IMG/VR virus record: IMGVR_UViG_3300046714_000174
Span: 1-49,532 of that record
DNA: 49,532 bases
From: a virus
Strand: one strand, 5' to 3'
Positions within the stretch are counted from its first letter, which is position 1, and every line of letters begins with the position of its first letter. Positions 1-49,532 of this stretch are shown piece by piece. Position numbers and translations under genes: made by a program. Under the pieces are notes generated by a model that saw nothing but the letters and a program-made list of their open reading frames with translations, did not search any database and had not been told where the DNA came from.

Positions 1-511
1 TATCCCGAGCCAACTCCGGAGTACTCCGGAGTACTCCGGAGTACTCCTGCAACGAGTGAGTCATTTGCGGAGTACTCCGCTCAGAGGAGAGGAGAGGAGA
101 GAAGAGGAGAAGAACCCCCCTACCCCCCAAGGGGGGAGGCGCGCTCCGCGCGCGGCTGCAACAGGACCACAGGCCGAGGTCATCCGGCACTGGATCCAGG
201 AATGGGCTCGGACGAGACTCGGCGCTGAGTGGAAGATCGCCCCGCGCGATTGCGCACACTTCTCAGCGCTCCTGACGCAGTGGGATGTGCGGGAGGTTTG
301 CGACAGGATCACGCGACTCCTAGACAGCGCAGACAGCTTTCACCTCCGAGCTGCAAGCCCAGGCATCCTCGAGCAGAACTTCAACCAGCTCGCTGTCGAG
401 GTTCGCGTGGCGCCCAAGTTCACCTCGATCACTGACCAAAACCTTCAGAACCTCGAAGAGGCTCGACGTATTGTCGCGGCTAAGTCCAACGAATCGGAGT
501 ACCTGCTATGA
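1..511 (+). CDS. Replication protein, 3' part (continues from 49062)
   Basis: This is the C-terminal part of the gene that starts at 49062. After the repeat linker there is a domain (from about base 150 on) with IRHWIQEWARTRLGAEW and a later hydrophobic core, the pattern of the C-terminal helicase-interaction region of phage replication proteins. The left-end copy of the repeat has three units. Read from 49062 through this copy, the frame shifts and stops at 226-228, giving a 186-residue truncated product. The C-terminal domain alone could then start only from the GTG at 56 (151 residues). The two-unit copy at the right end restores the full frame. The stop overlaps the next start (ATGA). Confidence 0.7.
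   Translation, partial: IPSQLRSTPEYSGVLLQRVSHLRSTPLRGEERREEEKNPPTPQGGRRAPRAAATGPQAEVIRHWIQEWARTRLGAEWKIAPRDCAHFSALLTQWDVREVCDRITRLLDSADSFHLRAASPGILEQNFNQLAVEVRVAPKFTSITDQNLQNLEEARRIVAAKSNESEYLL
14..47. repeat. Tandem 10-bp palindromic repeat (3 units)
   Basis: Three head-to-tail copies of CTCCGGAGTA are followed by a partial fourth. Each junction forms the perfect 14-bp palindrome CCGGAGTACTCCGG. The right-end copy has only two units. A related perfect palindrome, GCGGAGTACTCCGC, lies at 67-80. Because the unit is 10 bp, each gain or loss shifts the reading frame of the surrounding gene. Confidence 0.95.
14..145. other. Candidate replication origin inside the replication gene
   Basis: Three tandem palindromic units (14-47) and a further 14-bp palindrome (67-80) are followed by a run of 32 purines (83-114) built of GAGGA-like repeats, a C6/G6 inverted repeat (about 125-136) and a GC-rich dyad. 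All of this lies in the codons for the linker between the two domains of a replication protein. In phage lambda the origin sits in the same place, as iterons inside gene O next to an asymmetric tract. The assignment as an origin is inferred from that layout. There is no obvious AT-rich melting region, which is a point against it. Confidence 0.45.
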
Positions 512-4774: not shown

Positions 4775-5033
4775 ACTGCTCGCGCTGCTCCTCTTCGGTC
4801 TCCTCGCGCTCTCCTACGCGCTCGTGACGAACTGGATGATGCAGCGCGCTTTCACCGAGAACCGCGACTTCGCGAAGCATCTTCTCGATGAGAACCGCGA
4901 GCTGATTCGGCTCCTCGCCATTCGCGGCGAACCGGGCGGCGTGCAGCAAGTGATTCAGCGCCAGCAACAGACCGAAGCACGGCAACACCAGCCAGTGCAT
5001 CCGCCCGAGCTTGTCGTCACACCCGAGTATTGA
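4764..5033 (+). CDS. Small membrane-anchored coiled-coil protein
   Basis: An 89-residue protein from the ATG at 4764, overlapping the nuclease stop. A single hydrophobic segment covers residues about 4-24 (ELLALLLFGLLALSYALV). It is followed by a charged helical region with likely coiled-coil character and a Gln-rich stretch. Lying between terminase and portal, it might be a virion or assembly membrane protein, but no family is recognised. Confidence 0.6.
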   Translation: MAFELLALLLFGLLALSYALVTNWMMQRAFTENRDFAKHLLDENRELIRLLAIRGEPGGVQQVIQRQQQTEARQHQPVHPPELVVTPEY

Positions 5034-7075
5034 GCCTCGTCAAGGGAGACCGAGCGCGCGGAGCGCTTGAGATTTTCCGGAAGCGACTGCCCTACAAGCA
5101 GTCGACGAGCGATCGCATTGCCCTCGAAGAAGGTGCGATCCGCGAACTCGGGTTCTTCGCCGGCAAGCAACACGCGGCGCTCCTCGGCAATCAGCTCGTC
5201 GATGTTCCTCCGCGCGAGCACGAGATCCGCTACAAGGCGAACTTCGTCAAGCCCGCCGTGCTGCGCGCAGTGGCGAAGCTCATGGAGCTCGCGCCGAAAG
5301 CTGCCGTTGCCCCGCCGGATGGCGTCGGCTCCGCGCGCGCTCGTGAGATCAGTCGCATCAGCGAGGGCGTTCTACGCCACATCGTCGAAGCGTCAAACCA
5401 GCGCCATGAGATGTTCATGGTGTGGCTGTGGGCAGCGATCAACGGCACCGCGTTCCTGAAGAACGTGTTCGATCCGGAGGGCGGCGACCCCGAGCGCTTT
5501 TATTGGGTCTCGCCAGAAGACAAGACCGTCGTTCCCGACCAGTACCTCTCGGCTGAGGACAAACGACAGCGCGATGCGGCGCTTCTTTTCGACGACCTAG
5601 CGACCGGCGAGGTCTCCTGCGAAGCGTGCAGCCTGTTCCAAATCTACCCGGACAACCACTCGCGCCGAGGCCTCGACAAGTGCCGATGGATCTTCCAGGT
5701 CCAGTATCTCGACCGCGAGTTCATTGCCGAGAAGTTCGGCGTCGACCCCGACGACATCAAGACCGAGCCGGCATCGGGCCGCATGCAGCGCTGGGAGGAA
5801 TCACTCGCGCTCATGTCGACTGGCACGACGACGCGCTTCTACAACGGCATCCAGTCGGAACGCGAGCGCAAGGATCGCGCGTGGTTCGGCCAGATGTGGG
5901 AACGGCGCTCGAAGGCGTACCCCAAGGGTCGCTACGTTGCGATCGCGGGCGAGACCGTGCTCCGCGACAACAACAATCCCTACGTCGGAGATCCGCGCGG
6001 CTGGTGCGAGATTCCGTTCGTCAAGGTCGACTGGACGCCGATGCCTGGCCGCTTCTGGGGACTCTCACTGGTCAACGACCTGATGAATCCTCAGTTTCGC
6101 TACAACGAGTCGCGCTCGAGGATGGCCGAGTTCGAGCGCATCCACGGACGCGCGGCGATCTTCGTGCCCACGGGTTCGGGTATCACGCCCGGCATGATGA
6201 CGATCCAGAACGGCGCCGTGTACGAGTACAACCCGGCTGGCGGCGGCAAGCCCGAAGCCGCGCCGGCTCCGCAGCTCCCTCCTGAAGTCGCGCAGAACGC
6301 TGCGACCGCGCGCTCGGAGATCGGACAACTCTCGGCGCAGTCCGACATCGAGGGCTCGAAGATGCCCGGTCAGCTTCGATCCGGCCAAGCCTGGGCCGCG
6401 ATGCAGCACGAGCAGGACATCACGCTCACGGTCACGACCGAAGGACTCTTGCGCGCGCACCGCGACTGTGGCCGTCAGTCCCTTGCGATGGCGAAGATGT
6501 TCTACGACGCGCCGCGCATCGCGAAGTACCGCGGGCCTTCGGGCGATTGGGCGATCATGCAGTTCCAGTCTGCCGACCTCTCGACCGACGTTCACATCCT
6601 CGGCGAGCCGGGCGAGATCGAGACCACCTACGCGCACGACCGGCGCATTCTCGAGATGGCGCAAGCGCTGCCGAACCTCTTCGCCGATCCGAAGATGCAG
6701 GCCGGCATGCTGAAGGCGCTGCGCTTCCACACGGAAGCCGAGCTCGTCGACGACGTGCTTCAGCACGAGGCGCAGCAAGAGGAAGAGATGCGCCGGATGA
6801 TCGCCAACTTCAAAGCGTATCTCGATCAGCCGTTCCCGGTGCTGCCGTTCGAGGACGACACCGCGCACAAGCGCGTGCTTCTGCGCACGTTCACGAACCT
6901 CGAAGAGATGGATCGCTTGAACAACGACCAGAAGGCCGTGCTGATGGCGCACTGGACGATGCACGACAACCAGGAGCGCGGAAAACAAATGCAGCAACTC
7001 CAAATGCTGCAAGCAACCCAGGGGACGCCGGGCGCTCCTGGAAAGGCTTCACAACCACGCGCCCGCGCAGGATAG
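5030..7075 (+). CDS. Portal protein
   Basis: The 681-residue protein starts at a TTG that overlaps the previous stop (TTGA). Its length, its position after terminase and before scaffold and capsid, and its domain feel fit a podovirus/P22-type portal: an acidic N-terminal wing, a KVDWTPMPGRFWGLSLVNDLMNPQ stem region near 330-355, the ERIHGRAAIFVP stretch at 369, a clip-like Pro/Ala-rich loop near 402-420 and a long C-terminal helical barrel with a Gln-rich end. The dodecameric ring would form the DNA entry channel and bind the terminase. The call rests on context and pattern. Confidence 0.85.
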   Translation: MSLVKGDRARGALEIFRKRLPYKQSTSDRIALEEGAIRELGFFAGKQHAALLGNQLVDVPPREHEIRYKANFVKPAVLRAVAKLMELAPKAAVAPPDGVGSARAREISRISEGVLRHIVEASNQRHEMFMVWLWAAINGTAFLKNVFDPEGGDPERFYWVSPEDKTVVPDQYLSAEDKRQRDAALLFDDLATGEVSCEACSLFQIYPDNHSRRGLDKCRWIFQVQYLDREFIAEKFGVDPDDIKTEPASGRMQRWEESLALMSTGTTTRFYNGIQSERERKDRAWFGQMWERRSKAYPKGRYVAIAGETVLRDNNNPYVGDPRGWCEIPFVKVDWTPMPGRFWGLSLVNDLMNPQFRYNESRSRMAEFERIHGRAAIFVPTGSGITPGMMTIQNGAVYEYNPAGGGKPEAAPAPQLPPEVAQNAATARSEIGQLSAQSDIEGSKMPGQLRSGQAWAAMQHEQDITLTVTTEGLLRAHRDCGRQSLAMAKMFYDAPRIAKYRGPSGDWAIMQFQSADLSTDVHILGEPGEIETTYAHDRRILEMAQALPNLFADPKMQAGMLKALRFHTEAELVDDVLQHEAQQEEEMRRMIANFKAYLDQPFPVLPFEDDTAHKRVLLRTFTNLEEMDRLNNDQKAVLMAHWTMHDNQERGKQMQQLQMLQATQGTPGAPGKASQPRARAG

Positions 7076-20889: not shown

Positions 20890-21531
20890 ATGGGATCCTT
20901 CGGCGACTATCTCGCAGGGCTCGGCGACTTCAACGCTCAGGCGCCGCCTCCGGCAACGGCTGGCGCGAACCCTTACGGCACGGGTGAGTTCATTCCGCAT
21001 GCCTTCAATCCGGGCGATCCAGGCTACGGTGTCGGGTACGGTGGCGGCGGTGGATTCCTGCCCAACCCGAACAGCATCGAGAGCCAGCTCACTGCCGGCT
21101 TCAACAAAGCGGCCGGCATCGTCACGAAGGCGAGCCAGGGAACGGGCGACCTTCTCACGAACAGCTATCGCTCTGCGCTTCGCGAGCGACTTGCGGGCAA
21201 CGCTGGCGCACTCGGGCAGCAAGAGGAAGCGTTCGGCGCGCAGCGCTACGCGCCCGACGTCGGCGCCCGACTCGCCTATGCGCCGCGCGCGGCGAACCTG
21301 CAAGCGACGGGGCAGGCGATCGGTGAGAATCAGAGCGCACTTGGCGTGGATCAAGCGCAGCTTTTGAAGGGCACCGGGACGGAACTCGCCGGGCTCACCA
21401 CAGAACAGCTCTCGGATCTCATCAACCTCAAGATCGCGAAGGACTCGGCCTCGGCGACGAAGAAGGCGGGACTACTCGGAGCGCTCGGGCAGGTCGGCGG
21501 ATCACTTGGAGCAGCGGCGATTCTCGCGTAG
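20890..21531 (+). CDS. Putative internal virion/ejection protein
   Basis: A 213-residue protein with a Gly/Pro-rich N-terminal third (GYGVGYGGGGGF), a helical Ala/Gln-rich middle and a hydrophobic C-terminal helix (KKAGLLGALGQVGGSLGAAAILA). This design matches the small ejection proteins of podoviruses (T7 gp14 type), which insert into the outer membrane first. It is the first of three genes in the order small-medium-large, as in T7. The assignment comes from position and composition. Confidence 0.55.
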   Translation: MGSFGDYLAGLGDFNAQAPPPATAGANPYGTGEFIPHAFNPGDPGYGVGYGGGGGFLPNPNSIESQLTAGFNKAAGIVTKASQGTGDLLTNSYRSALRERLAGNAGALGQQEEAFGAQRYAPDVGARLAYAPRAANLQATGQAIGENQSALGVDQAQLLKGTGTELAGLTTEQLSDLINLKIAKDSASATKKAGLLGALGQVGGSLGAAAILA

Positions 21532-29096: not shown

Positions 29097-29237
29097 ATGC
29101 CTCTCGACAAGTCAGGATCGAAAGCGTCCGTGGGCAAGAACATCAAGGCCGAGAAGGCCGCTGGCAAGCCGCAACGCCAAGCAGTCGCGATCGCACTCAA
29201 CGTGCAGCGCGAGGCGAAGGGCAAGAAGAAGAGGTAG
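29097..29237 (+). CDS. DUF6496-like small basic protein
   Basis: A 46-residue Lys-rich protein. The pattern MPLDKSGSK...VGKNIKAEKAAGK...QAVAIALNVQREAK matches a small protein found in many phages (DUF6496-type: MPLKKG..., NI, QAVAIAL, basic end). Its function is not known. It stands two bases after the previous stop and ends directly before the next ATG. Confidence 0.75.
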   Translation: MPLDKSGSKASVGKNIKAEKAAGKPQRQAVAIALNVQREAKGKKKR

Positions 29238-39916: not shown

Positions 39917-40242
39917 TTGCTTCCTTTCGTTCGTTCGATCAGGGCCTCGAGCCACTTGAGCCCGGAGCCATCCTTCACTTCTCGCGCGGTGAACTTGAGT
40001 ACCCGCCACCCGGCGAGCGTCGCGTAGTTCAGCTTCACGCAATCGTTCTGCACGCCGCGCGGGCTCGCGTGATTCGACGCGCTTCCCTTCTTGAGCCAGA
40101 TTCCACCCTGGAGGTCGATGAGAACGTGCGCTGCGGGAACTGCAAAATCCCAGCGGTGACGACGCTTCGTCGGCCGGTACTGGCGTTCGAAGGGAATCTG
40201 TGCGGCGTTGAGCTGCATGGCGAATTCCTGTTCAAGGTCCAT
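39886..40242 (-). CDS. Vsr/DUF559-like PD-(D/E)XK nuclease
   Basis: A 118-residue protein of the small endonuclease type: RRHRWDFAVP (Asp32), LIDLQGGIW (Asp43, Gln45), then the D..K...A..GW.VL.FT pattern (NDCVKLNYATLAGWRVLKFT). This is the core of Vsr/DUF559-like PD-(D/E)XK nucleases, in which Q or K replaces the last catalytic lysine. It lies next to the Bet/Exo recombination genes and so probably works in recombination or DNA processing. The substrate is unknown. Confidence 0.65.
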   Translation of the reverse strand: MDLEQEFAMQLNAAQIPFERQYRPTKRRHRWDFAVPAAHVLIDLQGGIWLKKGSASNHASPRGVQNDCVKLNYATLAGWRVLKFTAREVKDGSGLKWLEALIERTKGSKCPDSTMKPV

Positions 40243-41450
40243 TAGCGCGAATCGGCAGGATCATATTGACCCTCTTCGGCGGGCTGCTCGTTTGCGGAAA
40301 AGGGCGGCTCGTCCCAGCTCCCAAACCACTTCACCCTCATCTCGCGCAGCGTTAGCAACAGCTTCTCTTCGACCTCGGTGCATCCGACGCCGGTTTCCTT
40401 CCAGCGCTTGAGCGCGAACCGATAGCCGTTGCCGAGCACGGTGTGCCGGCCGCCGTTGCGCGATCCCTCGGCGATCTCCGCGTAGCTCTTGCCGTGCAGC
40501 GGAGACTTCGCGGACTTCGTTTGCGCGATCTCGTGCGACCAGGAGTCGAACGGCGCGGCCCATTTGATCGGGAGCTCGCCCACGCTCTGCGTTGCCCACG
40601 CTGGCCGGGGCTGCGTCTTCTGCTCCTGGAAGACCGTGGAGCCAGTCGCTTCCGGGTCGGGCTTCTTGGCCTTCTTGTCGGCCTGGAGCTTCGCAACGGC
40701 TTCGGCGGGAGTCTTGGGGGAAGGGCCGGCAGGAGCGGGCTGCGTCGGCGCAGTGAGTGCTGCGGTCGATGGCTTCGCATTTGAAGTGGTGCCGCCACTT
40801 CCACCCGTTCCTGCCGGCTGTACTACTTGAGCCTCGATCTGAAGCGGCTCGCGATCGGCCTGCATCATCTCGGCCTCGCCCTTGACGCCGCTCGTGCTGT
40901 CGGGGAACGCGCGACGGATGCCGAGCTCCTCGGCGCACTTGGCGAGCATGAGCGGTCCCATCTGAAGCCAGAACTTCGTGGGGCGGTTGTCTCTGTCGGT
41001 CTGCACGTACTGATCCCACGTCGCGACGGCCCACAGGGGCTCCTTGAAGTCGTTGCGCAGAATGCCGACCTTCGCGGCACGCGGCGGATCTTTCGAGAGC
41101 CACACATCGACCCATTGGCCTTCGGGTCCGCACCAGAGCGGTCCGAGCTGGCCCGCGTACTTGCCCGAGTCTTCAGCCGTCTTGCGGAAGCCATCGACGC
41201 CGGTCTGAATCGACATCTCCTCACGCTTCGTCTGGCCCGACCAGCGAAATACCGCGTAGATTTGCTTGCGCAACGGATCGAGCCCGGTCGAATTGGCAAC
41301 GTGCAGAAAGAGCGCGAGCTCGTCGTCCGTCGCCTGTCGCTGTTTCGGTTGGCAGCACATGCGCTTGATGAGCGCCACCTGCTCGGGCGTCCAGGTGTAG
41401 CGGAGCGCGAGCGGTTGCGGCGCGATGACTTTCGTTTGTTCTGTGCTCAT
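40242..41450 (-). CDS. bet: Bet/RecT-type single-strand annealing protein
   Basis: The 402-residue protein overlaps the nuclease ATG (TAATG). The first ~200 residues are a clear Red-beta/RecT pattern: TWTPEQVALIKR, ATDDELALFLHVANSTGLDPLRKQIYAVFRW, MSIQTGVDGFRKTAEDSGKYAGQLG and MLAKCAEELGIRRAFPD. This domain anneals complementary strands and binds single-stranded DNA. The Pro/Ala-rich linker and the C-terminal part (residues about 225-400) are longer than lambda Bet (261 residues). The exonuclease gene stands four bases upstream. Confidence 0.9.
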   Translation of the reverse strand: MSTEQTKVIAPQPLALRYTWTPEQVALIKRMCCQPKQRQATDDELALFLHVANSTGLDPLRKQIYAVFRWSGQTKREEMSIQTGVDGFRKTAEDSGKYAGQLGPLWCGPEGQWVDVWLSKDPPRAAKVGILRNDFKEPLWAVATWDQYVQTDRDNRPTKFWLQMGPLMLAKCAEELGIRRAFPDSTSGVKGEAEMMQADREPLQIEAQVVQPAGTGGSGGTTSNAKPSTAALTAPTQPAPAGPSPKTPAEAVAKLQADKKAKKPDPEATGSTVFQEQKTQPRPAWATQSVGELPIKWAAPFDSWSHEIAQTKSAKSPLHGKSYAEIAEGSRNGGRHTVLGNGYRFALKRWKETGVGCTEVEEKLLLTLREMRVKWFGSWDEPPFSANEQPAEEGQYDPADSR

Positions 41451-48969: not shown

Positions 48970-49065
48970 ATGCGTCGACCCTGCGCGCAATGCAAGGGGG
49001 ATGCCGTGAGAATGCCCTCGGACGGCTATCTACGACGGGCCGTGTTCGCGGAGAAACAGCCATGA
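48970..49065 (+). CDS. Candidate 31-codon frame before the replication gene
   Basis: A short frame from ATG 48970 (earlier in-frame GTGs at 48940 and 48958) whose TGA overlaps the replication gene ATG at 49062. It encodes CAQC and basic residues. The ATGA overlap matches the rest of the genome, so it may be a real translationally coupled peptide. An overlapping 19-codon frame from 48950 has a better ribosome-binding site. Low confidence. Confidence 0.35.
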   Translation: MRRPCAQCKGDAVRMPSDGYLRRAVFAEKQP

Positions 49066-49532
49066 GGCGCGACTACGTGGCGCTCTACGCCACCATCTGC
49101 ACCAGCGAAAAGCTCGCTGATCTCGCCTCGGACACCAATCGGCTCTTCTACACCTGGCTCCTACCTCAGTGCGACGCCTGGGGCCGCGCTGACGGACGCG
49201 CCCGCGTGCTCAACGCGAAGGTCTGGCCCATGCTCTCCAAGAGCCTCAAGGAGACGGAATCCGCGCTCGCCGACTGCATCAGCCATCACCTCCTTCACCC
49301 CTACCACCATGCCGAGTTGGTTTGGGTTCAGATCCCGGATTGGGAAGAGAAGGCCGGACGGCTCTGCAAGAACGGCAGACGTGGCTCCTCGGCCTATCCC
49401 GAGCCAACTCCGGAGTACTCCGGAGTACTCCTGCAACGAGTGAGTCATTTGCGGAGTACTCCGCTCAGAGGAGAGGAGAGGAGAGAAGAGGAGAAGAACC
49501 CCCCTACCCCCCAAGGGGGGAGGCGCGCTCCG
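49062..49532 (+). CDS. Replication protein (lambda O-like), 5' part, continues at position 1
   Basis: The ATG at 49062 overlaps the stop of a small upstream frame (ATGA). The N-terminal ~95 residues read like the winged-helix domain of phage replication/DnaD-type proteins: a short beginning, a RLFYTWLLPQCDAWGRADG stretch, then alternating helices and a WVQIPDWEE strand. A charged, low-complexity linker (residues about 105-155) follows and holds the palindromic repeats. Joined across the contig ends through the two-unit repeat, the gene runs to 511 and encodes about 277 residues. The product probably binds the origin and recruits the replicative helicase with the next gene. I am confident of the join and moderately confident of the function. 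Confidence 0.75.
   Translation, partial: MRRDYVALYATICTSEKLADLASDTNRLFYTWLLPQCDAWGRADGRARVLNAKVWPMLSKSLKETESALADCISHHLLHPYHHAELVWVQIPDWEEKAGRLCKNGRRGSSAYPEPTPEYSGVLLQRVSHLRSTPLRGEERREEEKNPPTPQGGRRAP
49395..49532. repeat. Terminal direct repeat, right copy
   Basis: This is the 138-bp right copy of the segment at 1-148, with two rather than three copies of a 10-bp palindromic unit. In this version the frame from the ATG at 49062 runs straight through the repeat into the frame that ends at 511, so this copy represents the intact replication gene. Confidence 0.95.
49408..49431. repeat. Tandem 10-bp palindromic repeat (2 units)
   Basis: Two copies of CTCCGGAGTA plus a partial unit, equivalent to positions 14-47 but one unit shorter. 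This version keeps the replication gene in frame. Confidence 0.95.

Follow-up and report, generated by a model that had tools for sequence, protein, structure and literature searches.

A palindromic repeat array in the initiator gene of an uncultivated phage: a candidate origin and an extra unit at a contig end

The window analyzed here is the whole of virus record IMGVR_UViG_3300046714_000174, 49,532 nt long. Its two ends carry the same sequence, within a replication gene, and differ by one copy of the 10-base palindrome CTCCGGAGTA. The locus thus raises the question of which copy number belongs to the working gene, where the additional unit comes from, and what the array itself may do. A first-pass annotation had offered either a phase switch acting on the initiator or an assembly error at the contig ends; the switch went unsupported, and the contig-end alternative is favored.

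Contig ends and the frame of the initiator gene

Positions 1–148 and 49395–49532 are identical except for the number of CTCCGGAGTA units, the overlap measuring 148 nt in the three-unit copy and 138 nt in the two-unit copy. The initiator gene, the gene after it and the repeat elements described here lie on the + strand. The annotated coordinates were confirmed: three units occupy 14–43, followed by a half unit at 44–47, and two units occupy 49408–49427, followed by the half unit CTCC at 49428–49431. Counted from the left end, the copies match for 37 nt (1–37 = 49395–49431) before their lengths diverge. The exact match that reaches the right-hand contig end is 126 nt long (23–148 = 49407–49532), and the contig ends show no exact terminal repeat. 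CTCCGGAGTA gave 8 strand matches in the window versus 0.03 expected from shuffles, and a scan of the whole window found the motif nowhere outside the end repeat.

The annotation also held that the array sits within a replication gene starting at 49062 and that unit number sets its frame, and both statements stand. With two units, 277 codons are open from the ATG at 49062 to a stop ending at 511; with three, the product has 186 residues and stops at 226–228. The 5' part of the gene (49062–49532) comprises an N-terminal domain at about 49062–49394 and then a linker, and runs on across the contig ends to 511. The C-terminal part in the two-unit frame spans 149–511, and its stop overlaps the ATG of the next gene (ATGA, 508–511), which encodes 162 amino acids at 508–996. 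Several relatives also have a gene of roughly 180–230 amino acids directly 3' of the initiator.

Judged by sequence, this is a replication initiator gene. The N-terminal part matches PHROG 16167 (replication initiation, E = 1.5e-4) and aligns by tblastn with annotated phage DnaD/replication-initiation proteins (best E = 4e-7), which together identify a homologous DNA-binding domain of the DnaD-like or O-like kind. Its structural model is winged-helix-like (pLDDT 84.5), with weak best PDB matches (E about 0.02). DnaD-like and O-like initiators (PHROG 16167, 1408, 270 and kin) consist of a DNA-binding N-domain, a linker and a C-terminal domain; in the window protein the N-domain has its PHROG counterpart, but the C-terminal part matched no PHROG or Pfam family. 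Searches of viral and bacterial contigs returned no close relative of this initiator. Elsewhere in the window, a P22-like portal protein is encoded at 5030–7075 (Pfam E = 8e-15) and a RecT-like annealing protein at 40242–41450 (PHROG E = 4e-58); most other window genes tested had no family match.

Codon usage was scored with a model built from the long genes of the window. The N-terminal domain scored +0.28 per codon in its own frame, and positions 152–508 scored +0.17 in the two-unit frame versus −0.58 in the three-unit frame and −0.49 in the remaining one. Because codon usage is coding-like on both sides of the array and the last four bases of the two-unit reading frame (ATGA) are shared with the next gene, two units are favored as the working form, and the array at 49408–49427 is probably the main one. 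Note that the GTG at 56, from which the C-terminal domain had been proposed to start separately, does exist, but inspection by eye found no ribosome-binding site at the usual distance from it.

Assembly of the three-unit end

Closed on two units, the genome is a circle of 49,384 bases, which the start of the window first joins at base 23 in a k-mer graph. The tip and the join together measure 148 nt, or about one short read. Among the values of k tried, the last k-mer before the junction ends at 49532 for k = 127 alone. Assemblies with k = 127 do occur in this collection, since another of its records (G007) begins and ends with the same 127 nt. The contig ends fit a k = 127 path that comes in through a three-unit tip starting at base 1, circles once and stops before re-using the junction. 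The overlap is nevertheless off by one: a path that takes no k-mer twice yields 126 nt (k−1), whereas an edge-based path would yield 127 nt and closed circles usually give k, as in the 127 nt of G007. The geometry suggests that the contig may run from a tip into a circle, with the overlap one base from the simplest expectation. The three-unit array at 14–43 is probably a slippage error or a rare variant, and the same contig geometry indicates that the three-unit form is probably rare; it fits a rare genome and a slip by a polymerase or in the library alike. The mirror arrangement, in which a two-unit tip joins a three-unit main path, was also considered and rejected; by arithmetic, k = 127 would then start the contig 88 bases before base 1.

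The array and its neighbors in initiator linkers

Several further elements lie 3' of the array. The half-sites of the array recur in a distinct 14-nt palindrome, GCGGAGTACTCCGC, which occupies 67–80 (also 49451–49464). It is followed at 83–114 (also 49467–49498) by a purine-only tract with a period of about 5 nt, a possible opening or strand-loading region which, being about half G, differs from an AT-rich unwinding region. The hairpin CCCCCCTACCCCCCAAGGGGGG lies at 115–136 (also 49499–49520) and recurs in the initiator linkers of other phages, and a second GC hairpin, GCGCGCTCCGCGCGC, lies at 139–153.

The palindrome pair occurs in seven stretches among 2.9 million viral contigs; four are in initiator linkers and three represent one other sequence. 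Three copies of CTCCGGAG at a 10–11-bp period were found in 8 viral contigs, in every case within an initiator-like open reading frame, where they separate its N-terminal part from its C-terminal part, and a control palindrome gave four hits with none in an initiator linker. When these eight frames were tested together with one from the palindrome-pair scan (L016), eight of the nine matched PHROG replication families and the ninth was a fragment. A Rhodobacteraceae phage (OP947163) whose initiator is 29% identical carries the same palindrome in the same linker at period 11, the period of most relatives; that of the window is 10. Among loci fetched by the N-terminal domain, 19 palindrome copies fell in 2.8 kb of linkers versus 2 in 100.8 kb elsewhere. 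With the query-building loci left out, the counts were 5 in 2.2 kb versus 2 in 81.4 kb (p = 3e-7). The 85k bacterial and archaeal genomes searched gave three hits to the palindrome pair; as these fall outside initiators, phage records alone show the association with initiators. A literature search on the motif returned unrelated work.

In relatives the palindrome is read as NSGV, TPE and LRS, that is, in all three codon frames, for which reason we take the DNA, and not the peptide, to be what is conserved. The other initiators with such arrays in their linkers have intact reading frames, and array length among relatives is about 2 to 4 units.

In relatives, too, the array is followed on its 3' side by a purine-rich tract, with a hairpin beyond it. 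The purine fraction of the linkers was 0.70 versus 0.54, and a hairpin arm of at least 6 was present in 14 of 24 linkers versus 9% of control windows. Among the matches listed, the C6-TA-C6 hairpin CCCCCCTACCCCCCAAGGGGGG lies in many initiator linkers (for example L022 and L088–L166) and is inside a reading frame of at least 200 codons in 61 of 73 distinct loci, at a median codon of 182 and in codon phases 1 (39 loci), 2 (21) and 0 (1). All ten of the frames sampled matched PHROG replication or primosomal families, O-like ones included. Depending on the frame, the element is translated as PLPPKGG, PPTPQGG or PPYPP. Repeats just upstream of CCCCCCTACCCCCCAAGGGGGG scored 14.4 versus 0.91 among the matches listed; since 8-bp palindromes were not enriched in that set, these upstream repeats are of other kinds.

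Proposed origin and alternative explanations

Our main reading, to which we give a probability of roughly three in four, is that a two-unit genome carries an iteron array as an origin inside its initiator gene, that the third unit is a low-frequency slippage tip, and that no programmed switch operates. The array places repeated sites within initiator coding sequence, which is the arrangement of an origin within an initiator gene; its origin function and its binding by protein we infer from analogy and sequence. The array would form the initiator-binding part of the origin, bound by dimers of the N-terminal domain as in lambda O, and the adjacent purine tract would open. The C-terminal domain, again by analogy with lambda O, would help to bring in the helicase. 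Two genomic units would keep the gene in frame. The third unit at base 1 would have arisen by 10-bp slippage at low frequency, whether among the phages themselves or in library preparation or sequencing, and its product would have formed a tip in the assembly graph, leaving the circle unclosed.

In lambda, the origin is placed midway along gene O, where four inverted-repeat iterons lie beside an AT-rich region (PMC7466680, PMC6022878). Stx phages have 6 iterons, of which the extra two add 13 residues in frame (PMC7466680). The window resembles both in having inverted-repeat sites in mid-initiator gene followed by an opening region, a putative one in the window, and in a site number that varies between related phages (PMC7466680, PMC6022878). 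The lambda sites, however, are hyphenated repeats of 18–19 bp next to AT-rich DNA, whereas those of the window are 10-bp palindromes (10–11 bp in relatives). The window units, unlike the extra Stx iterons, are not a multiple of three in length, and they lie beside a purine tract and a C-run hairpin. Because this tract is not AT-rich and binding is putative, we say that the element may work like a lambda origin and do not class it as one. SPP1 has one origin, oriL, within its initiator gene 38 and another, oriR, elsewhere (PMC6316719). The likeness consists in repeats bound by the initiator, putatively so in the window, within the initiator's own gene plus a second repeat site at a distance, for which contig G004 offers a comparison; it is one of anatomy. 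Unlike the window array, oriL has repeats in direct orientation and an unwinding region that is AT-rich.

A phase switch would have the population toggle between two and three units, giving a full-length initiator or an N-domain-only product. Both lengths are indeed present in the contig, the effect on the frame is real, and a palindromic tandem should be prone to slippage (hairpin of three units at −14.7 versus −8.3 kcal/mol). We nonetheless consider a switch very improbable. The codon model, the ATGA overlap, the k = 127 contig geometry with its three-unit tip of about one read, the intact reading frames of relatives and the iteron explanation all point away from it; none of the related phages has its array in two lengths, and a literature search on phase-variable replication initiators found nothing for phages. 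An initiator lacking its C-terminal part would be expected to stop replication, and because a 10-bp change in unit number breaks the gene, a useful two-length switch is unlikely. That the repeats merely reflect a low-complexity protein linker is more improbable still: repetition in the amino acid sequence is common in such linkers, but in both the palindrome and the C-run the same DNA words give different peptides according to frame, which contradicts that explanation.

Variation without adaptive value deserves somewhat more weight as a tentative alternative, in which replication slippage adds a third unit to a minority of genomes, most of them defective. Relatives differ in array length, and in other phages the linker has the look of a hotspot for indels, in that L039 and L040 are separated by a single-C gap that breaks the frame. 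PCR or sequencing slippage would account for the same data, however, and the L039/L040 gap may be a homopolymer sequencing error. It is rather doubtful that the array instead serves as the operator of a transcription regulator or as a site for some other protein. Contig G004 does carry two palindrome pairs outside its initiator gene, one of them between late-region genes, but SPP1 also has its oriR outside gene 38 (PMC6316719), and the location within the initiator gene, shared by phages that have diverged widely, together with the purine tract and the hairpin, matches known origins.

If the proposed origin is correct, repeats, a purine tract and a hairpin in an initiator linker could be used to find candidate origins in uncultivated phages from sequence. 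An end mismatch in a circular phage contig may likewise stem from repeat slippage, such that a complete genome is not recognized as circular. More speculatively, palindrome array, purine tract and C6-TA-C6 hairpin might together form a shared, frame-independent cassette, an origin module in many widely diverged phage initiator genes, in which slippage of 10–11-bp units would couple site number to initiator integrity.

Related observations were made in other contigs. The pairs in G004 (L014/L017) are CTCCGGAG pairs at 21513–21531 and 29116–29134; the one read in L014 sits between the late-region genes and is reminiscent of SPP1 oriR. L039 and L040 share 98.0% identity across 3.9 kb, and their sole gap is one C in the linker C-run at about 2416; the extra or missing C breaks the initiator frame in L039, and a real change and a sequencing error are both possible. 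Most period-12 CTCCGGAG arrays proved to be codon repeats lying in frame within unrelated genes, one of them (L030) without a replication match, and this class was not counted. An exact tandem palindrome near the start of a Lentisphaerae pseudopilin-like reading frame (L020, 2259–2278; read as HSGVLRS) is probably due to chance. Finally, in the linkers of L049, L051, L052 and L054, the palindrome ACTTGCAAGT replaces ACTCCGGAGT at the corresponding position and is followed by a hexamer-like AGATAA tract, as if the sequence of the site differed by phage group.
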